Source: Gloeomargaritales cyanobacterium VI4D9 | GTDB lineage: Bacteria; Cyanobacteriota; Cyanobacteriia; Gloeomargaritales; Gloeomargaritaceae | Reading direction: 5' to 3' | DNA: 64,000 nt | NCBI GenBank assembly: GCA_927797885.1 | Contig: OV696605.1 | Coordinates: 2,579,157-2,643,156, forward strand | Shown here: positions 2,864-60,442 of the stretch, in pieces | Layout: each line of letters begins with the position of its first letter | Position numbering within the stretch: position 1 is the first letter of the stretch | The notes under the pieces: model-generated | Seen by the model: only the letters and a program-made list of their open reading frames with translations | What the model was told of the DNA's origin: nothing | Databases searched by the model: none | Translations under genes and position numbers: made by a program

Positions 2864-3856
2864 GTGACCATCACCCTGACCTTGGGTGACCCAGCGGGGA
2901 TTGGGTCGGAAATCATCCTCCGGGCATTCTCAAGCTATCGCCCCCGTTGGCCGGTACGGGTGGTGGGTTCTGTTGCGGTGCTGGTAGCGACCTACGAACG
3001 TCTGCGGGGGTTGGGACAGGCGGTGGCGGATCCGGCGGCGCTGGATGTGGTGGATGTGCCCACCCCAGAGCCGGTGCAACCGGGGCAACCCTCGGTGCTG
3101 ACCGGGGCGTTGAGTGTCCAATATCTGCAAACTGCCCTGGCGTTGGGCTGTCAGGCGTTGGTCACTGCCCCGGTTGCCAAAGCCTATTGGCAGAAAGCGG
3201 GGTATGCCTTCCCAGGGCAGACGGAATTTTTGGCGCAGGCAGTCGGGGCGCACCCAACCGCTATGGCTTTTTTTGCCCGCTCCCCCCATACGGGTTGGGT
3301 ACTCAGAACCGTACTGGCGACCACCCACATTCCCCTGGCGCAGGTGCCGTCTTGTATCACCCCGGCTTTGCTGACGGCAAAATTAACCCTACTGGTGGCA
3401 AGTTTACGGCAGGATTTCGGACTAGAACGGCTCCGGATTGCCCTGGCGGGTCTGAACCCCCACAGTGGGGAGCAGGGGCATTTGGGCAGGGAAGAGCAGG
3501 ATATTTTAAAACCCTGGATGCAGTCCATGCGGGCGCAGTTTCCCCAGGTGGAGTTGCAAGGGCCGGTGCCCCCGGATACCCTGTGGGTCGCCCCTGCCCA
3601 AGCCTGGTGGCATCGGGATGTCCCTTCCCCCTGGGATGCCTGCATCGCCCTTTACCACGACCAGGGGTTAATTCCGGTGAAAGCTTTAGCCTTTGACCAG
3701 GCCGTGAACACCACCCTAGGGTTGCCCTTTGTACGCACATCCCCGGATCACGGCACCGCCTTTGACATTGCTGGCCAGGGCAAAGCCAACCCCACCAGCT
3801 TCATTAGTGCGTGGCAATGGGCGGAATGGCTCTGGGAACGGCGGTTTGGGGCTTAA
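2864..3856 (+). CDS. pdxA: 4-hydroxythreonine-4-phosphate dehydrogenase PdxA
   Basis: PdxA oxidises 4-phosphohydroxy-L-threonine in the DXP-dependent route to pyridoxal phosphate. Family marks: TLGDPAGIGSE at the N-terminus, TAPVAK, LNPHSGEQG and YHDQGLIPVK with metal-binding histidines, and SPDHGTAFDIAG near the end. The frame is open from 2786, which would overlap cyAbrB by 26 bases. I prefer the GTG at 2864, which gives a 330-residue protein with the usual N-terminus; no clear ribosome binding site supports either start. The enzyme is a cytosolic homodimer. No other pyridoxine gene is nearby. Confidence 0.92.
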   Translation: MTITLTLGDPAGIGSEIILRAFSSYRPRWPVRVVGSVAVLVATYERLRGLGQAVADPAALDVVDVPTPEPVQPGQPSVLTGALSVQYLQTALALGCQALVTAPVAKAYWQKAGYAFPGQTEFLAQAVGAHPTAMAFFARSPHTGWVLRTVLATTHIPLAQVPSCITPALLTAKLTLLVASLRQDFGLERLRIALAGLNPHSGEQGHLGREEQDILKPWMQSMRAQFPQVELQGPVPPDTLWVAPAQAWWHRDVPSPWDACIALYHDQGLIPVKALAFDQAVNTTLGLPFVRTSPDHGTAFDIAGQGKANPTSFISAWQWAEWLWERRFGA

Positions 3857-5636: not shown

Positions 5637-5721
5637 TAATCTTCCTTACAGATAGATAGTTTTATCAATTGCAATTGACGCCACCGAACGGGTCAGATCA
5701 GAAGCAATCGCCTAAAGTGCG

Positions 5722-6291
5722 TTACCAACCCAAAATGGTCGGGGGTGTGCCCTTGATGTCAGCGGGAGGGGTCAGTGCCGCCCGGGTTTCCACCGCAAAG
5801 GTAGCCATGCTCATCCCCCCAAACCCATAACCGAGGGTGCTGGTACGCAGACGGATGGTTTCCCCCTCAAACCAAAGCCGTTCCTGGGAGCGTAGGGTTT
5901 CATATTCCGTGATTAAAGTCATGGCACCCGTTTCGTCCATCTCGTAGGAACCGGCTACCGGGCTTTTCTCCGCATAACCGACCTCCCGCAGGAGTTTCCC
6001 CGTCCGCTCACCCGTGGGGATGAGAACCATCACTGTACTGCCGTTTTGCTGTTCCCCTTCCTTGTCCCAACCCATCACCCCCTGCCAGGTCACCCGGGAC
6101 GCTCCATGCGCCTGCTCCCAGGAATATTGGTACAATGCACAGACGGCATCCACGCCCGGATCATCCAAGGGCAGGGAGGTGACCGAAATGAGCGAGCGAC
6201 CCATTTCCGTTTGCCGAAAGGCGAGATGATGGGTCACCCGTTGGGAATGCCATTGACCTGCACTGCGGGCAAAAAAATCCTTGGCATCCAT
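5722..6291 (-). CDS. cpcS: phycobiliprotein lyase, CpcS-III (Ycf58-like) type
   Basis: The 189-residue protein belongs to the CpcS/CpeS lipocalin-like lyases that attach phycocyanobilin to Cys-84-type sites of phycobiliproteins. Landmarks: FFARSAGQWHSQRVTHHLAF at the N-terminus, GKLLREVGYAEKSPVAGSYE in the middle, LTLITEYETL and RLWFEGETIRLRTSTLGYGF. As remembered, these match the Thermosynechococcus CpcS-III protein closely. Type assignment is by that resemblance. The protein is cytosolic and acts before phycobilisome assembly. No phycobilisome structural gene is visible in the window, so the lyase is encoded apart from its substrates. Confidence 0.88.
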   Translation of the reverse strand: MDAKDFFARSAGQWHSQRVTHHLAFRQTEMGRSLISVTSLPLDDPGVDAVCALYQYSWEQAHGASRVTWQGVMGWDKEGEQQNGSTVMVLIPTGERTGKLLREVGYAEKSPVAGSYEMDETGAMTLITEYETLRSQERLWFEGETIRLRTSTLGYGFGGMSMATFAVETRAALTPPADIKGTPPTILGW

Positions 6292-6474: not shown

Positions 6475-7095
6475 TTACTCTAAAACATCCGGTTCACCGC
6501 TTCCACGCCTGTGTAATCTTTTGTTATGGTCTGGAGCTTGCCGTACCGCCTGAGCGAGTAACCGCCGATATTCCCGGTCGCTGATGGGATAGGCCCCAAA
6601 GCGGGCCAGATGGGGGTTCATCAACTGGGCATCAAACAACTGAAATTCCTGCTGGCGCAGATGTTGTACCAGGGTCACCAAGGCGACTTTGGAGGCATCC
6701 GTCACCCGATGGAACATAGATTCGCCGATAAAGGCTTTGCCGATGACGATGCCCAAAATACCCCCCGCCAAGACCCCATCCTGCCAGGTTTCCCAACTGT
6801 GGGCATGACCGGCGCGGTGCAATTCTTTGTATAGATGTTGTAATTCTTCGGAAATCCAGGTTTCCTGGCGGTCGGCGCAACCGGCCACCACCCCCGCAAA
6901 GTCCTGGTTCAGGCGCACGGTGAACTGTCGGAATTTACGCCGGAGGGAACGGGGGCAATGGAAACGGTCATCGAGGGGGATCAAGGCTCGTTCACGACTC
7001 CGGTACCAGCGCAAGGAGCCGGTCTGCTGATCCGCCATCAGGAAATAGCCCTGACGGTAGCCCCGCAGGATCAAATCCAGGTCAAAGTCGGTCAT
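6475..7095 (-). CDS. aat: leucyl/phenylalanyl-tRNA-protein transferase
   Basis: Aat transfers leucine or phenylalanine from charged tRNA to N-terminal Arg or Lys of proteins, marking them for ClpS-ClpAP degradation. The 206-residue protein begins with [15 protein letters not shown] and has the [12 protein letters not shown] segment, GHAHSWETW, and [18 protein letters not shown] typical of the GNAT-like fold. [20 protein letters not shown] near the C-terminus is also characteristic. Length is typical for cyanobacterial members. ATG at 7095. It lies 30 bases upstream of psaI on the same strand, so the two may be cotranscribed. Confidence 0.93.
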
Positions 7096-7143
7096 AGACT
7101 GCGTTCCGTTAGGTTACATTAGGGATAAATTTCTGGCAGAGCG

Positions 7144-7530
7144 ATGCCCCAGTACCTGATTATTTACGATGGCCAGTGCAACCTGTGTAGTACGGGTGTG
7201 CAGGCGGTTCATGCCCTGGATCAAGGCCGTTTATTTACCTACCTACCGATGCAGGATGAAACGGCGTTAGCCGCCTGGGGCATTACCCCCGACACCTGCG
7301 CCCAAGGGATGATGGTGATTGACATGAATGAACCTGACCAGTGTTGGCAGGGCAGTGCCGCCGTGGAACAGTTGGTGAGTTTACTGCCGGGGTTGGCACC
7401 CTGGGTGGACACCTACCGGAGCATGGGCGGTCTGAAATCCCTGGGGGACGCCTGCTATGCTCAAATCCGGGATCATCGCTACGAATGGTTCGGAGCCCGG
7501 GCAGAGGTTTATCGGGTGATGAACCCCTGA
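7144..7530 (+). CDS. DCC family thiol-disulfide oxidoreductase-like protein (DUF393)
   Basis: A 128-residue protein with the DUF393 hallmark YDGQCNLC close to the N-terminus, a thioredoxin-like CxxC variant. Family members are predicted to have thiol redox activity, but few have been tested. The rest has the usual YLPMQDETA, a central SAAVEQLVSLLPGL and a short C-terminal helix. There is no signal peptide. ATG at 7144; the stop overlaps the coaBC start by one base (TGATG), so the two are probably translationally coupled. A functional link to coenzyme A synthesis is not established. Confidence 0.8.
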   Translation: MPQYLIIYDGQCNLCSTGVQAVHALDQGRLFTYLPMQDETALAAWGITPDTCAQGMMVIDMNEPDQCWQGSAAVEQLVSLLPGLAPWVDTYRSMGGLKSLGDACYAQIRDHRYEWFGARAEVYRVMNP

Positions 7531-8756
7531 TGGGTCGGATTTTGGTGGGGATTGGCGGGGGCATTGCCGCCTATAAAATCTGTGAGTTGATTTCCCGGTG
7601 GGTGCAGGAAAACCATCAGGTGCGGGTGATTTTGACGCAGATGGCGGAGCGGTTTATCACCCCCCTGACCGTCAGCACCCTGAGCCGCCAGCATGCTTAC
7701 ACGGACGGGGATTTTTGGCAGGTCACGGGACGACCCCTGCACATCGAATTGGGACAATGGGCAGAGGTGATCCTGGTTGCCCCCCTGACGGCGGATTTAC
7801 TGGCGAAAATTGCCCACGGACAAGCGGATGACCTGCTCACCAATACCCTTTTGGCCAGTACCGCCCCCGTCCTGGTTGCTCCGGCGATGAATACCACCAT
7901 GTGGCAGAAACAATCAGTTCAAGATAATTACCAAAAAATCCAATCTTGGGCGCAATTTCACAGTGTGGGTATCCGGTCGGGGCTGTTGGCCTGTGATGCG
8001 GTGGGGCCGGGGCGCATGGCTCAGCCGGAGGAAATTCATCCCTGGGTGCATTCGCTCCTCATCACCGGCGGCAAGAGGGATTTGGCGGGCTATAAAATCC
8101 TGGTCACAGCGGGGGGAACCCGAGAATATCTTGACCCGGTGCGGTTTTTAGGCAATCCGGCCACGGGAGCGATGGGGCTGGCTCTGGCTCAGGCGGCCAA
8201 CCATCGGGGCGCTGAAGTGACGTTGATCCACGCTCCCGTGGGGGGGTCTCTGCCAGCGTTAGACCGGGTGGTGGCGGTGACTAGCGGGGCAGAAATGTAC
8301 CAGGCGGTGGTGGATGCCTTTCCTACCCAGGACTGGTGTTTGATGGCGGCGGCGGTGGGGGATGTGCAACCCCGGCACTACCACCCGGAAAAACTCCCCA
8401 AGCGGGATTTGCCGGACTGTTTACCCTTGCAACCGGTGCCGGATATTTTGCAGGCGTTGGGCACCAGTAAACAACCCCACCAATTGCTGGTCGGGTTCGC
8501 CGCCCAAACCGGAGACATCACCTCCCCCGCCTGGGAAAAGTTACGGCATAAAAACCTGGATGCCATCGTTGCCAACCCAGTGGACGAACCGGGAGCAGGT
8601 TTTGGGAGCGCCACCAACCGGGGCGTTTGGCTGGATCGGCTGGGGCAATGGCGGGATTTGCCCCTCGTGCCGAAATTAACCCTGGCGCACCAGATTCTCG
8701 ATGCGTGCCGGGATTTCTATGCTTCCGTCTCGTCTCCCTCGTCAGTGGGTGGGTAG
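7530..8756 (+). CDS. coaBC: bifunctional phosphopantothenoylcysteine decarboxylase / phosphopantothenate-cysteine ligase
   Basis: CoaBC makes 4'-phosphopantetheine in two steps: CoaB joins cysteine to 4'-phosphopantothenate, and the flavin-dependent CoaC part decarboxylates the product. The CoaC domain (residues 1-170) shows GIGGGIAAYK, the APAMNTTMW substrate motif and LLACDAVGPGRM. The CoaB domain (about 190-400) has VTAGGTREYLDPVRFLGN, AAAVGDVQP, KLPK and NPVDEPGAGFGSATN. The 408-residue length is normal. The frame extends upstream, but ATG at 7530 fits the family and overlaps the preceding stop. The last 40 bases overlap rpmF on the other strand. The panD and coaX genes of the same pathway lie elsewhere in the window. 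Confidence 0.95.
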   Translation: MGRILVGIGGGIAAYKICELISRWVQENHQVRVILTQMAERFITPLTVSTLSRQHAYTDGDFWQVTGRPLHIELGQWAEVILVAPLTADLLAKIAHGQADDLLTNTLLASTAPVLVAPAMNTTMWQKQSVQDNYQKIQSWAQFHSVGIRSGLLACDAVGPGRMAQPEEIHPWVHSLLITGGKRDLAGYKILVTAGGTREYLDPVRFLGNPATGAMGLALAQAANHRGAEVTLIHAPVGGSLPALDRVVAVTSGAEMYQAVVDAFPTQDWCLMAAAVGDVQPRHYHPEKLPKRDLPDCLPLQPVPDILQALGTSKQPHQLLVGFAAQTGDITSPAWEKLRHKNLDAIVANPVDEPGAGFGSATNRGVWLDRLGQWRDLPLVPKLTLAHQILDACRDFYASVSSPSSVGG

Positions 8757-8896
8757 TAGAAACTGCGGGAACGACCGGTCAGGATCGACTTAGCTAGGGA
8801 CAGAGCTTTGCGGGCAGAAAAGAGAGCCTCCCGCTTCCAAACCGCTTTGCGCCGACTACTGCGAGCCTTGGACGTTTTCTTCTTAGGAACGGCCAT
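8717..8896 (-). CDS. rpmF: 50S ribosomal protein L32
   Basis: A 59-residue basic protein beginning MAVPKKKTSKARSSRRKAVW, with ALSLAKSILTGRSRSFYYP towards the end, as in cyanobacterial L32. The zinc-binding cysteines found in some L32 proteins are absent, also usual in cyanobacteria. The acidic C-terminal tail (TDEGDETEA) is encoded on the strand opposite the coaBC 3' end, giving a 40-base convergent overlap. ATG at 8896. No other ribosomal gene is nearby. Confidence 0.92.
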   Translation of the reverse strand: MAVPKKKTSKARSSRRKAVWKREALFSARKALSLAKSILTGRSRSFYYPPTDEGDETEA

Positions 8897-9990: not shown

Positions 9991-12060
9991 TTAACCTCCT
10001 AATTGAGCCGACAACAACGCCGTGACCTGGGTCGGACTGAGCCGACTGGGCCACACCACCGGGGGCTGATTTCCCCGCGGATACAGGACATACAGGGGCA
10101 CGCCACTGCGGCCAAACCCCTGCAAAACTTGGGTAATCTCTGGATTCCGCCTTGTCCAGTCCGCCTTGAGGAGGGTGACCCCCCGCTCGCTAAAGGCTCG
10201 TTGCACCTCCGGCTGGCTGAAGACCAACCGTTCGTTCACTTGGCAACTCACACACCAGGCCGCCGTAAAATTCACAAACACGGGTTGCCCCTGCTGGCGG
10301 AGTTCCTGCAACCGGCTAGGGGTAAATGGTTCCCAACTGGCCGCCTGCGTGTCTGGAGTATTCGTATAAACAACAGCATTACTACTGGGCAACCAACTCG
10401 GCAGGGTCAGACAAAAACTTAAAATTAACAATGTACTAAAAATAGCAAGCCTACGTCCTGCCGTCTGTGCTTGACTTTGACCATACACCCACGCCGCCAA
10501 CCCCAACAGCACCAGCCCCAGTAGTCCCACCGCCAAGCCATCGGTGCCGGTCTGGAGGGTCAACACCCACAGCAACCAAGCCGCCGCCCCGTAGAGGGGA
10601 AACGCCAACAGCCGTTGCAGGGTGTGCATCCAGGCTCCCGGTTTGGGTAACCACCTGCGCCAGGCCGGGACAAAACACAAAGCCACGTAGGGCAGGGCAA
10701 ATCCCACCCCCAGGCTGATAAAGACCGCCATCGCCGCCCCGGGGGGTAACGTCAAAGCCGCCCCAATCGCCGTCGCCATGAAGGGAGCCGTGCAGGGAGT
10801 CGCCGCCACCGTTGCCAGTACCCCGGTGAAAAATTCCCCCAGATACCCCGGTCGTTCCGTTAAAGTTTGCCCCACCCCCAGCCAACCCGTGCCCACCTGA
10901 AACACCCCGGACAGATTCAGTGCTACCCCGAACAGGACATATATCAAGAGCAAGACCATCCCCGGCGATTGCAACTGGAATCCCCACCCCAACTGTTGCC
11001 CCAACCCTCGCAGGATCAGCAACCCGCCCGCCAGCGCCACAAAACTCACCAGCACCCCCGCCCCGTAGCTCACCCCCCCCCAGCGCACTTGCCGGGGAGA
11101 TTGACGCATCTTGTCCGCCAATTGCAGGGTTTTCAGGGATAAAATCGGCAGGACACAGGGCATGACATTCAACACCAATCCACCCAAAAAGCCCAGCCCC
11201 AAAATCCGTCCCAGATTCCCCATCCCGCCGGAAGTGGGTAGGGTTCCCGGTTGCGCCTGGATGGTGTAGGCGTTGGTTCCCCGCTGGGTGGTCAGCACCA
11301 ACACCCCCTCCACCGTCGTTAAATGTTCCTGATAGCCCCGCTGGAGGGTTAATTCGGTGACCTTTCCCCTGCTGGTCAAGGTTTGGGGCGACGCATAGGT
11401 AATCACCCCATCCGCCCAGGGGAAAAACCAGGCTTCCTTCACCCCACCGACCGGCAGGCTTAACGTCAATTTCTCCCCGTCAACCCCATAGACCACTGAC
11501 CAAGGGGCAGGCTGGGGATGTTGCGCCCGCACCTGCGCAAACGCATTCGTCACCGTTGGATTGGGCTGGGCAGCACTGGCAATGGGTAAGCTCAAGGTCA
11601 CGGGGGTCGCTTCGGGGATGCAGTCCTCCTGGCACACCAACCAACTGGCCTGCGCCCGCAAATCCAAGGTTTGACCGGGGGTGAGGTCAGCCGGGGGCGT
11701 AATTTGGCTGAGGAGCAACACCTGGTTCTCGTAACCAAAATTCATCAGAGGGCCAACGGGAAACCGCTGGGGGTAAGGCCATTGCAATTCACCCGCCGTC
11801 ACCCCTGGGGGCAGTTGCCAATTCAGGCGCACCCGGTCCCCGGAATCCCCCGGATTTTGCCAATAGACGTGCCAACCTGGCGTGATCTGCAACTGTAAAC
11901 CCACCCAAAATGGCGTTCCCGGTTGTACCGTCCGCACCTCGCTCACCAGTTCCGCCTGCACATAACGGGGACTCGCCGCCTGGGCGGGTACAGCCATGCC
12001 CAGCCCTCCCCACAGGGACAGCAAGCCCACCAACATCAGCCCCAGCCAGCGTCCGTACAT
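9991..12060 (-). CDS. DsbD/ScsB-family protein-disulfide reductase
   Basis: The 689-residue protein moves reducing power from cytosolic thioredoxin across the membrane. After a signal peptide comes a DsbD-alpha/ScsB-like N-terminal domain with VCQEDC. The membrane core (about residues 280-520) keeps both hallmark cysteines, in VMPCVLPI and ATPCTAPF. The C-terminal thioredoxin domain has AAWCVSCQ. So all three cysteine pairs of a complete DsbD/ScsB relay are present, which is more than the short CcdA form common in cyanobacteria. The frame is open from 12096; ATG at 12060 (MYGRWLGLMLVG) gives a sensible signal peptide. It is followed directly by the redoxin gene, its probable partner. Confidence 0.87.
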   Translation of the reverse strand: MYGRWLGLMLVGLLSLWGGLGMAVPAQAASPRYVQAELVSEVRTVQPGTPFWVGLQLQITPGWHVYWQNPGDSGDRVRLNWQLPPGVTAGELQWPYPQRFPVGPLMNFGYENQVLLLSQITPPADLTPGQTLDLRAQASWLVCQEDCIPEATPVTLSLPIASAAQPNPTVTNAFAQVRAQHPQPAPWSVVYGVDGEKLTLSLPVGGVKEAWFFPWADGVITYASPQTLTSRGKVTELTLQRGYQEHLTTVEGVLVLTTQRGTNAYTIQAQPGTLPTSGGMGNLGRILGLGFLGGLVLNVMPCVLPILSLKTLQLADKMRQSPRQVRWGGVSYGAGVLVSFVALAGGLLILRGLGQQLGWGFQLQSPGMVLLLIYVLFGVALNLSGVFQVGTGWLGVGQTLTERPGYLGEFFTGVLATVAATPCTAPFMATAIGAALTLPPGAAMAVFISLGVGFALPYVALCFVPAWRRWLPKPGAWMHTLQRLLAFPLYGAAAWLLWVLTLQTGTDGLAVGLLGLVLLGLAAWVYGQSQAQTAGRRLAIFSTLLILSFCLTLPSWLPSSNAVVYTNTPDTQAASWEPFTPSRLQELRQQGQPVFVNFTAAWCVSCQVNERLVFSQPEVQRAFSERGVTLLKADWTRRNPEITQVLQGFGRSGVPLYVLYPRGNQPPVVWPSRLSPTQVTALLSAQLGG

Positions 12061-57120: not shown

Positions 57121-57192
<72 letters not shown>

Positions 57193-57246
57193 TACCCAAT
57201 AAGAAGCTAGATTCCCGGTATTTACGGTACTTACAGGATTCACCCC

Positions 57247-57277: not shown

Positions 57278-57338
57278 AAATATAGCGGAATATCCAAGTT
57301 TGGATGTAAGATGGGTGTAGTCAGATGTAGGCAAGGAT

Positions 57339-58442
57339 ATGGGCAAATCACCCAAGGGAACCGTTAGCCTGGTCAATTCTAATGGGCGGCTACAGGCAAG
57401 GTTCCGGTGGCAAGGGAAGCGGTATTACTTGAGCCTGGGTGTAACGGATACACCCAAGAATCGGAAGCTGGTGGCGGGGCGGGTGGCGCAGATACAGCGT
57501 GACCTGGACTATGGGGAATTTACCGGCGACTTATCCAAGTACCAACCCCAGGCGGTGGGTGTAGCGGTTACACCCAAGATACCTAGCTTGATGGAATTGT
57601 GGACAAGGTTTGTGGACTACAAGCGACCCCAGTTAGCGGTGTCCACCATCCACAAAATTTATGGGCGGTATGGTGAGTTGTTGCGCCGGTGCCCTTACCA
57701 AGAGTTAGAGAAGTCCACAGAGATTAGGGAATGGGCGCTGAATACGCAACCACCAATTACCGCCAAGCGACTTCTACAGCACCTGGGGGCTTGCTGTAAA
57801 TGGGCGGTTCAGTCGAAGCTAATCCCATCCAACCCATTTCAGGGAATGGCGGCTAATATCACCATCCCCAAATCTGAACGGGGCGGGGATGAAATTGACC
57901 CGTTTTCCCCAGATGAACGGGCGGCTATTATCGCCGGGTTTGAGTCATCCCAGTATTACCGACCCTATGCCCCGTTAGTACGGTTTTTATTTTTGACGGG
58001 GTGCAGACCGGGGGAAGCACTGGGCTTGGAGTGGGGACACATTACGGATGAGTTTATCCATTTCCAACAGACTTCAGTCAATGGACTCCGGGGCGAATTG
58101 AAGCAGGGACTCAAAACCCAAAGTAGTCGTAAATTCCCGATTAACCGGCAACTACAGGAACTTTTAGACAATATCCCCAGGGTGAATAAGCTAGTCTTTC
58201 CTAGTCCTACGGGGCGCATTATTGACTGGACAAATTTTAGGGCTAGGGCCTGGGTAACGGTTCTCAAGTCTGTGGGGGTGCGCTACCGCAAGGTTTATCA
58301 AGCCCGGCATACCTTCATCACGGAAGCCCTGCGCCGGGGGTTATCGGTACAGGATGTGGCAAAGCTAGTTGGCAACAGTCCCCAGGTGATTTATGCCCAT
58401 TACGCCGGGGCAAGTCGGGAACTGGTGGTGCCGGAACTATGA
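57339..58442 (+). CDS. int: tyrosine recombinase/integrase
   Basis: The 367-residue integrase has an N-terminal DNA-binding part (SLVNSNGRLQARFRWQGKRY), a SAM-like core-binding domain (MELWTRFVDYKRPQLAVSTI), and the catalytic domain with the first Arg in FLTGCRPGEALGLEW. The box II segment reads YQARHTFITEAL, where Tyr stands at the usual first His as in many phage integrases. The nucleophilic Tyr is in VIYAHYAGA. ATG at 57339 follows AAGGA. It starts 146 bases from the tRNA-Gly end and overlaps the next gene by 4 bases. Confidence 0.92.
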   Translation: MGKSPKGTVSLVNSNGRLQARFRWQGKRYYLSLGVTDTPKNRKLVAGRVAQIQRDLDYGEFTGDLSKYQPQAVGVAVTPKIPSLMELWTRFVDYKRPQLAVSTIHKIYGRYGELLRRCPYQELEKSTEIREWALNTQPPITAKRLLQHLGACCKWAVQSKLIPSNPFQGMAANITIPKSERGGDEIDPFSPDERAAIIAGFESSQYYRPYAPLVRFLFLTGCRPGEALGLEWGHITDEFIHFQQTSVNGLRGELKQGLKTQSSRKFPINRQLQELLDNIPRVNKLVFPSPTGRIIDWTNFRARAWVTVLKSVGVRYRKVYQARHTFITEALRRGLSVQDVAKLVGNSPQVIYAHYAGASRELVVPEL

Positions 58443-59236
58443 CTAATCCCAAGTGGCGGCGCAAATTGAGGGAACTGGTGGGGGCGGAACTTGCCCCATT
58501 CATCCCCCATTGGGTCGAGCTAGAACCGCCGGATGTACCCCAGGATTTTTTAATTGAATTGGAATTTTACGATTGGTGGCAAGCGGTCAAAACCCATGCC
58601 AGCCGGGGGGAACTTCACCCCAGCATCCACAACCATCCCCGAAGTGCAGTTATTGGCAAAGACGGCAATTATCAATCTGTTGACCTGACTGGCACAGGAC
58701 TACCCCGCAAATTTGAACGATTCTACACCAAAGGATTAAATTACCCCCAAACTACCCCCCAGGTGCAGTGGCCTATGACCTTAAGGTGGGCTTGGGTAAG
58801 CGTCACCCTGAGAGATGACGGGGTGAGTATGCCCAATGATGACTACAACCCAGGGGAATCCTTGTGTACGTTGATCCAGGATACCCCCCAGCAGTTCATT
58901 CATAGCCTAAACTTTTGGCATGGGCATTACCAAATTTATTTGAAATTGACCTCCATAGAACGGCGGTTCCTGAGTGCCATTAGGGGAACGTATTCTTGCA
59001 GTCACTCAACTGGAACGCAACATCAATGGTACGGTTCCTACAAAAATTTGCGATGGGAACCCGAGCGTTATTTCCCTGGTGTTGACCCCACAAACTACGG
59101 GCGGCACCTAAAAAGACTGCAAACCCTGGGACTAATCCAAATCCACCGGCTGGGAAATGGAAACATTACGAGTTTTAGCTTTGACATCGCTACAACCGGC
59201 GCAGTGATACACGTTTGCAAAAAACTTTGTAAATAA
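58439..59236 (+). CDS. hypothetical protein of the integrated element, possibly replication-related
   Basis: A 265-residue protein I cannot assign. It has a Trp-rich middle (NFWHGHYQIYLKL, GTQHQWYGSYKNLRWEPERY) and a C-terminal region YGRHLKRLQTLGLIQIHRLG with the look of a winged-helix DNA-binding motif. Three iterons lie directly downstream, the placing often seen with plasmid or phage initiators and regulators, so an initiator or repressor role is possible. ATG overlaps the integrase stop (ATGA). No catalytic motif is obvious. Confidence 0.6.
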   Translation: MTNPKWRRKLRELVGAELAPFIPHWVELEPPDVPQDFLIELEFYDWWQAVKTHASRGELHPSIHNHPRSAVIGKDGNYQSVDLTGTGLPRKFERFYTKGLNYPQTTPQVQWPMTLRWAWVSVTLRDDGVSMPNDDYNPGESLCTLIQDTPQQFIHSLNFWHGHYQIYLKLTSIERRFLSAIRGTYSCSHSTGTQHQWYGSYKNLRWEPERYFPGVDPTNYGRHLKRLQTLGLIQIHRLGNGNITSFSFDIATTGAVIHVCKKLCK

Positions 59237-59427
59237 TTGTTAAAACATACTGCTTTTATTATTACACAAATTTTGACGGGGTAAACCCTAGAATCGGTAT
59301 GTTATTACAGAAAATTTGACGGGGTAAATGGGCATATCCCCATTCAATCCCCCTGATTTTGACGGGGTAAACCCTAAATTGAGAGCCTGTAACCTTTGCT
59401 ACGTTGGACTTGTAGAGTTTTTGAGAG
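59237..59427. other. intergenic iteron and control region
   Basis: About 190 bases with an AT-rich head (TTAAAACATACTGCTTTTAT) followed by three iterons and then the leader of the excisionase-like gene. It is a candidate replication origin or operator. Confidence 0.5.
59271..59375. repeat. three iterons with exact 43-bp period
   Basis: The shared core is TTTGACGGGGTAAA; two copies extend to TTTTGACGGGGTAAACCCTA. The GAC of the core starts at 59275, 59318 and 59361, so the spacing is 43 and 43. The sequence between copies is not conserved. Such phasing (about four helical turns) places a bound protein on one face of the DNA. Confidence 0.8.
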
Positions 59428-59715
59428 ATGTTTATGACGACATTTCACCCGGTCAAAAGGTGCGCCGAGCAGTTAGGAGTCCACTGGGCATGGCTCAGGG
59501 ACAGGCGGCTACGAGGTCAATTCATCGAGGGTGTCCATTACCGCAAGGTTCCGGGGATTCGGGGGTACTGCTACAATACTGAACTTTGCGGCCACTGGAT
59601 TGATTGCGGGGGCGATCCGATTCTCCACCAGGCGGCGATTGATCAGTTTTTGGCATCCCAGCGAATGACACGGATTTTGCAACAAGTCAAGCGGGGGGGC
59701 ACCAGCAATGGCTGA
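59428..59715 (+). CDS. excisionase-like small DNA-binding protein
   Basis: A 95-residue basic protein with VKRCAEQLGVHWAWLRDRRL at residues 9-28, a helix-turn-helix like those of MerR/Xis-type proteins, then RGQFIEGVHYRKVPGIRGYC with the winged turn seen in excisionases. It ends in a basic tail. It follows the iterons, so it could bind them or act with the integrase. ATG at 59428 follows GAGAG. It overlaps the next gene by 8 bases. Confidence 0.65.
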   Translation: MFMTTFHPVKRCAEQLGVHWAWLRDRRLRGQFIEGVHYRKVPGIRGYCYNTELCGHWIDCGGDPILHQAAIDQFLASQRMTRILQQVKRGGTSNG

Positions 59716-60442
59716 GCAATTTCACCGGCTGACCCTGGGCGAACTGAAACGACTTTACCAGTCCGGCGGTTTGACCAGCGTGGCATATTTGAGACTCATT
59801 CTGCAGACCAAAATGCGCGCCGGCTGGAAGCTGACCATTGAGAGTGTTGACCAGTTCTGCGGCGAATGGGGTCTCAGCAAATCAACTTTCTACAGAGCTA
59901 GGCGAAAACTCCAGTTAGAAGGATTCCTGTCAGTACAACATACACGGCTAACCTTGACTTGTAACACAAATTCTCACCAGTGGCACTCAAGTCTCACCAA
60001 TGAGAATCCAATTCTCACCGGTGACACTCAGGATGTCACTGATGAGAATCAGACAAGCCTCAAACCCCGTGCTGGTGCGGGTTCTGGCGTTCTACTAGAT
60101 GTTTATCAGATGTCTAATAGATGTTTACTAGAGGGAACAGCCGATTTTGTTAGTACAAACCAAGCCGATCCAAGTTATCTCAGATTTCTGGGTTACAAAC
60201 GAAGGAACCCCTGGAAGCGAGTTACCGGCGAGGCGATTGAGCGAGAACTTGAGACTAACCCCGATCCCAGGATCAAGTTCGGTTGGCTCAAGACAGCCCC
60301 AAGTGTGTTGTCCCCCTGGTGGTCAGTTGAGTTTAATCCTTTAGCGGAATCCCCCCCAGGCGACCCAACAAGCCAGGGTTCCGGTCCGCACTTAGGGAAT
60401 GAGCTTGAACAGTCCCCGATGGGTGTTGGAGGCAATTTATGA
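59708..60442 (+). CDS. replication-like protein with helix-turn-helix
   Basis: A 244-residue protein. The N-terminal region carries a winged-helix-like segment (VDQFCGEWGLSKSTFYRARR, then KLQLEGFLSVQHTRL) as in phage replication and initiator proteins that resemble DnaD or O proteins. The middle is low complexity and encodes a 41-bp DNA repeat. No ATPase or nuclease motif is visible. The C-terminus (SPPGDPTSQGSGPHLGNELE) is disordered. I infer an accessory replication or regulatory role, not certain. Its stop overlaps the next start (ATGA). Confidence 0.6.
   Translation: MAEQFHRLTLGELKRLYQSGGLTSVAYLRLILQTKMRAGWKLTIESVDQFCGEWGLSKSTFYRARRKLQLEGFLSVQHTRLTLTCNTNSHQWHSSLTNENPILTGDTQDVTDENQTSLKPRAGAGSGVLLDVYQMSNRCLLEGTADFVSTNQADPSYLRFLGYKRRNPWKRVTGEAIERELETNPDPRIKFGWLKTAPSVLSPWWSVEFNPLAESPPGDPTSQGSGPHLGNELEQSPMGVGGNL
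59970..60051. repeat. 41-bp imperfect tandem repeat with inverted ends, inside a coding region
   Basis: ATTCTCACCAGTGGCACTCA begins at 59970 and ATTCTCACCGGTGACACTCA at 60011. Each unit ends with TGAGAAT, so each can form a hairpin with ATTCTCA. The period is not a multiple of three, so the protein copies are not repeats. Confidence 0.75.

Follow-up and report, generated by a model that had tools for sequence, protein, structure and literature searches.

The gap between the integrase-coupled gene orf265 and the excision and replication operon that starts with orf95 is filled, within an 8.2-kb integrative element that occupies tRNA-Gly(CCC) in a Gloeomargarita genome, by three exact plus-strand copies of the 14-bp sequence TTTGACGGGGTAAA, set at identical steps of 43 and 43 bp (Table 1). 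We propose that this array is the operator of a switch between maintenance and excision, most likely bound by the orf265 product and repressing the operon downstream, a reading that we put a little above an even chance. The element extends past the end of the window, that is, the whole 64-kb stretch of DNA analysed here.

According to this proposal, orf265, made together with the integrase, would encode the element's own DNA-binding regulator, with the 14-bp sites serving as its evenly spaced binding units; it would control, most likely repress, the operon starting with orf95 and orf244. In the integrated state, integrase and regulator would be produced together and the excision and replication operon held down; once this repression was lifted, the element would excise and replicate. 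We infer three points here, namely the identity of the regulator as orf265, its binding to the sites and its action as a repressor and not an activator, the direction of the effect being read from gene order alone.

Table 1 Features of the integrative element that lie within the window.
Feature	Position	Strand	Remarks
tRNA-Gly(CCC), integration target	57121..57192	+	ARAGORN
attL core, 51-bp exact direct repeat	57147..57197	+	second copy beyond window end
tyrosine integrase, N-terminal arm-binding domain	57339..58442	+	Pfam PF12167, PF00589
orf265, int-coupled, putative winged-helix regulator, proposed repeat binder	58439..59236	+	overlaps int
repeat copy 1, TTTGACGGGGTAAA	59272..59285	+	exact match
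repeat copy 2, TTTGACGGGGTAAA	59315..59328	+	exact match
repeat copy 3, TTTGACGGGGTAAA	59358..59371	+	exact match
orf95, excisionase-like small DNA-binding protein	59428..59715	+	phrog_539 excisionase, E=0.03
degenerate inverted copy 4, TTTTGACCGGGTGAA, 2 mismatches	59444..59458	-	inside start of orf95
orf244, replication-initiator-like, first gene after orf95	59708..60442	+	phrog_428 E=0.003; phrog_186 E=0.007
four ~18-bp iterons, ATTCTCAYYNGTGRCACT type	59970..60049	.	in orf244; better origin candidate
three 11-bp AT-rich repeats beside iterons	60091..60132	+	possible unwinding region

In line with the preliminary description, which had reported three core copies at identical 43-base steps, every copy was found to be exact. 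The triplicated word is 14 bases long, against a maximum of 8 when the 250-bp region was dinucleotide-shuffled 2000 times (0/2000), and the triple is the sole equally spaced exact 12-mer triple (step 13–150) in the window. Across the whole genome (3,162,419 bases), exact copies of TTTGACGGGGTAAA are limited to these three, with a single further copy at one mismatch lying 1.26 Mb away. As the genome has no further exact occurrence, we consider the site specific to the element, and a host regulon site was ruled out on the count of three exact copies.

Core identity is 14/14 in all pairs of copies, whereas the flanks agree at only 2–16 of 20–29 positions, so that conservation stops sharply at the core edge. 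The spacers, previously described as non-conserved, are not wholly so, since copies 1 and 2 have 16/29 bases of their 5′ flank in common and copies 1 and 3 agree in TTTT ahead of the core and CCCTA behind it. The agreement between the 5′ flanks of copies 1 and 2 would suit a 43-bp tandem duplication decaying without function. We consider such an origin very improbable, given the intact core between divergent flanks, the recurrence of arrays of unrelated sequence at the same place in relatives (see below), and a fourth copy that falls at about matching codons of orf95.

This fourth copy is inverted and degenerate, and lies 87 bp (about 2 × 43) past copy 3, in the first codons of orf95. Matches as good as this one are expected by chance at about 0.027 per 6.9 kb, and it probably belongs to the array, which would then comprise four repeats. 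Another core match with two mismatches, at 57991, lies within int, in codons for the motif FLTGCRPGEA, and is probably a chance effect of the codons there. A sigma-70 promoter scan of the array gap produced no convincing candidate, the one weak match, on the minus strand, being no better than chance; this counts against the operator reading.

The ends of the element are marked by the 51-bp repeat, which corresponds to the 3′ part of tRNA-Gly(CCC) and recurs 8,209 bp downstream, at window-equivalent positions 65356–65406. Between the two copies, the order is integrase, orf265, the repeats, orf95, orf244, then a DUF3310 gene, RusA and a Sak-like annealing protein. Identity of the integrase to its counterparts in the two array-bearing relatives is 84% and 72%. 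Integrase arm-type sites were rejected as an identity for the 14-bp repeats, the core being absent near both element ends (nothing at three or fewer mismatches). Exact copies of TTGGATGTAA, and likewise of TGGGTGTA, are present at both ends (about 57300–57325 of the window and 8452–8480 of locus L005), making these two sequences candidate arm-type sites.

Near the right end of the element lies a small gene whose product has, by eye, a ribbon-helix-helix look. Upstream of it is a second evenly spaced array of the element, formed by CTCTGTATAC at 7930, 7985 and 8041 of L005, past the window end and 55 and 56 bp apart; its counterpart in L047, a relative in the same genome, consists of GTATACA sites at 10582, 10637 and 10672, two of which are also 55 bp apart. 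These sites bear on the idea that the 43-bp array is a copy-control, incompatibility or partition site, working through initiator titration or through binding of a partition protein. Regular spacing and a ribbon-helix-helix-looking protein encoded by the element are what such a site would lead one to expect, but the right-end gene has different evenly spaced sites of its own, the 43-bp core is unlike the iterons of orf244, and the element has no recognisable ParA-like gene. We accord this explanation a slim chance.

The proposed regulator gene is closely tied to the integrase gene, with which it overlaps by 4 bp (ATGA at the int stop), and in each of the four elements with such a middle gene, this gene overlaps the int stop or closely trails it. 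Profile searches with orf265 returned no Pfam, PHROG or NCBIfam match. Residues 169–235 align weakly with the corresponding genes in relatives (E 0.005, five-sequence comparison), and on these weak alignments we class orf265 as a putative winged-helix protein; the winged-helix-like C-terminus of the preliminary description is retained to that extent. Single-sequence AlphaFold models of orf265 and orf95 reached pLDDT values of 33 and 52, respectively, and neither was used.

The excisionase-like character ascribed to the downstream gene likewise comes down to a weak profile match of orf95 to phrog_539 (E = 0.03–0.05), with no Pfam or solved-structure match. Its more likely start is the ATG at 59434, which has GAGAG upstream, in preference to 59428. 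Homologues of orf95 occur in 40 of the 160 cyanobacterial genera sampled. The orf265–orf95 DNA had no homologue in plasmids, and no homologue of either protein was found in phages. No usable relative came from IMG/VR scans with orf265, orf95, orf244 or the middle gene of the sister element; scans with the orf95 and integrase alignments gave one distant, uninformative locus each, and a single GTDB 220 scan gave a contig of SKYG116, a Gloeomargarita MAG, as its sole match.

Position-equivalent arrays are present in two related elements: L047, which is inserted at tRNA-Gly(TCC), and L050/L056, the element of SKYG116, which lies beside the same host gene as the window element. L047 carries AAACTGATAAC at 3208, 3245 (one mismatch) and 3320, with spacings of 37 and 75 bp, and L050 carries three exact copies and a weaker fourth copy of AAACTGGTAAC at steps of 24, 54 and 24 bp (also expressed as 24 and 78 bp). 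Each of these arrays beat all 2000 shuffles. The arrays of both elements have a first copy overlapping the middle-gene end and a last copy, in direct orientation, among or near the first codons of the orf95 homologue (KLIT and KLVT), not far from the position of the inverted copy in the window. Core and spacing, however, differ from those of the window, and the TTTGACGGGGTAAA core pair occurs in 0 of 95 other genomes; conservation of the core in relatives thus fails for its letters and holds for its arrangement. The preliminary description had also read the even phasing as placing one protein on the same face of the DNA. A step of 43 bp is about 4.1 turns, but the spacings differ among elements and are not all whole helical turns (37/75 and 24/54/24), so this argument does not transfer and same-face binding is not general.

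L047 and L050 have homologous middle genes, at 36% identity over most of their length (35.6% in a second comparison), and also have in common a near-identical putative recognition helix (ASRCLREL) and a near-identical repeat. The window middle gene differs from both, and its repeat differs too. A further element, that of G004 (L049), has a near-identical orf95 helix region (VHWAWLRDRRLRGQFIEG) and neither middle gene nor repeats. Its integrase is split, and its translation contains X at 6822–7826 and 8558–8839, where the bases are masked or undetermined; because of this damage the absence of repeats in L049 is weaker evidence. The G007 element (L052) has a middle gene, and its array is not significant. 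L077, a third related element elsewhere in the same genome, has between int and its replication gene what by eye looks like an XRE-type repressor, encoded on the opposite strand, which leads us to regard this position as a regulator slot. L077 also has a different replication gene, a module replacement at the switch.

We favour orf265 as the binder because the repeats are alike where the middle genes are alike (L047 and L050), and because G004 is without both array and middle gene. As array-bearing elements number three (window, L047 and L050), this co-variation of regulator and site is anecdotal. The operator function that had been among the early suggestions is strengthened in that the array lies between the int-coupled and the excisionase-like gene in three elements and is absent from the element that has no middle gene.

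The main rival, which we regard as unlikely and yet the most serious of the alternatives, is that orf95 itself binds the repeats and so autoregulates its own operon, as P2 Cox or RdfS does. Both of these proteins attach to their own promoter regions as oligomers. Orf95 has weak similarity to the excisionase family, and single asymmetric sites in direct orientation, which are less typical of repressors than palindromes and so speak against the operator reading, fit excisionase-type proteins such as orf95. Furthermore, wHTH recombination directionality factors bind att and their own promoter, as exemplified by RdfS of ICEMlSymR7A, whose targets are attP and the promoter of its own gene (PMC11963761). 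RdfS, however, is without a consensus motif (PMC11963761), unlike the sharp 14-bp sites described here. Excisionases act at att, where the search of both element ends gave no copy of the core, and in G004 an orf95 with nearly the same helix region is not accompanied by such repeats.

Building on orf265 as the preferred binder, we tentatively raise the possibility, to which we give well under an even chance, that the int-coupled gene and its sites form an exchangeable cassette, in which a regulator of an undescribed winged-helix family and matching direct-repeat operators are swapped as a unit between otherwise related elements. Such exchange might include an occasional swap for a classical repressor and might give each element its own immunity specificity, which we hold just as tentatively.

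A better candidate for the replication origin of the element lies about 0.6 kb from the 43-bp array, inside orf244, a gene with matches to phrog_428 (replication initiation) and phrog_186 (DnaD-like). The four iterons found there have dyad character, alternate in orientation and are 20–22 bp apart, and the AT-rich repeats beside them may be an unwinding region. Among nine distant orf244 homologues, six had their best local autocorrelation at lag 21 and two at lag 42, and in these eight (L083, L084, L085, L086, L088, L089, L090 and L091) the peak was at offset 216–282 of the match; the ninth, L087, peaked at lag 26 and offset 72, with no 21- or 42-bp periodicity. Counting the orf244 of the window (lag 21), in-gene periodicity was seen in 9 of 10 sequences. 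In a word-count test against codon-shuffled genes, 6 of the 9 homologues exceeded the shuffles at 1.3% or less, which was not the case for L087 (0.82), L089 (0.80) and the window orf244 (0.09).

Iterons were also found inside the replication genes of two other elements of this genome. In the sister element L047, the primase/helicase gene contains TTCACCAT or its complement ATGGTGAA ten times at 5694–5870, and that of the array-less L077 has repeated GTTACTGATG on the reverse strand at about 5700–6200. Because of these in-gene iterons, three elements of the genome own an origin candidate apart from any array upstream of orf95. Judging from the periodicities, orf244 and its relatives look like a family of initiators with lambda O-like in-gene origins in several cyanobacterial genera.

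These observations weigh on the suggestion, made in the preliminary description, that the array is an origin of replication, in which case the 43-bp repeats would be iterons bound by orf265 as the initiator, in the style of iteron plasmids. Direct repeats at about one site per four turns, beside a possible winged-helix gene, are compatible with an origin, as is a marginal match of the SKYG116 middle gene to O-like initiators (E = 0.05). Against this, the array is not the only or main iteron cluster of the element, orf244 having a separate lambda O-like cluster with flanking AT-rich repeats, and the same 21- or 42-bp in-gene periodicity is found in 8 of 9 orf244 homologues. An origin was rejected as the main reading of the array on the in-gene iterons of orf244, and we now hold it to be improbable.

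Gloeomargarita is the cyanobacterial genus considered closest to plastids, and our literature search found no paper on Gloeomargarita that also mentions integrase. If the operator reading is true, it would locate the site at which a small mobile element of this genus is controlled. The regulator/site pairs of these elements would offer a simple set for specificity tests, and the in-gene origin family of orf244 a concrete place for testing the replication of such elements.

In its gene content, the element resembles phage satellites of the PICI-like kind, with a size of about 8 kb, an integrase, an excisionase-like gene, a replication module, RusA and a Sak-like protein, and with no structural genes seen. 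Unlike in phage satellites, no helper phage, packaging or interference gene was identified for the element. Orf244, and not the 43-bp array, is comparable to lambda O, in which the middle of the initiator gene holds four iterons with internal dyad symmetry next to an AT-rich region (PMC7466680); the in-gene iterons and AT-rich repeats of orf244 have the same layout, whereas the two genes have no detectable sequence homology and their iteron sequences are unrelated. The 43-bp array differs from the P2 C/Cox and RdfS switches in that its candidate regulator is an unclassified int-coupled gene, and in having sharp, evenly spaced direct 14-mers, none of which was found at att. Like those switches, it belongs to a small element that has an integrase at one end by a tRNA att site, and its putative protein-binding sites occupy the presumed promoter region of an excisionase-type gene.
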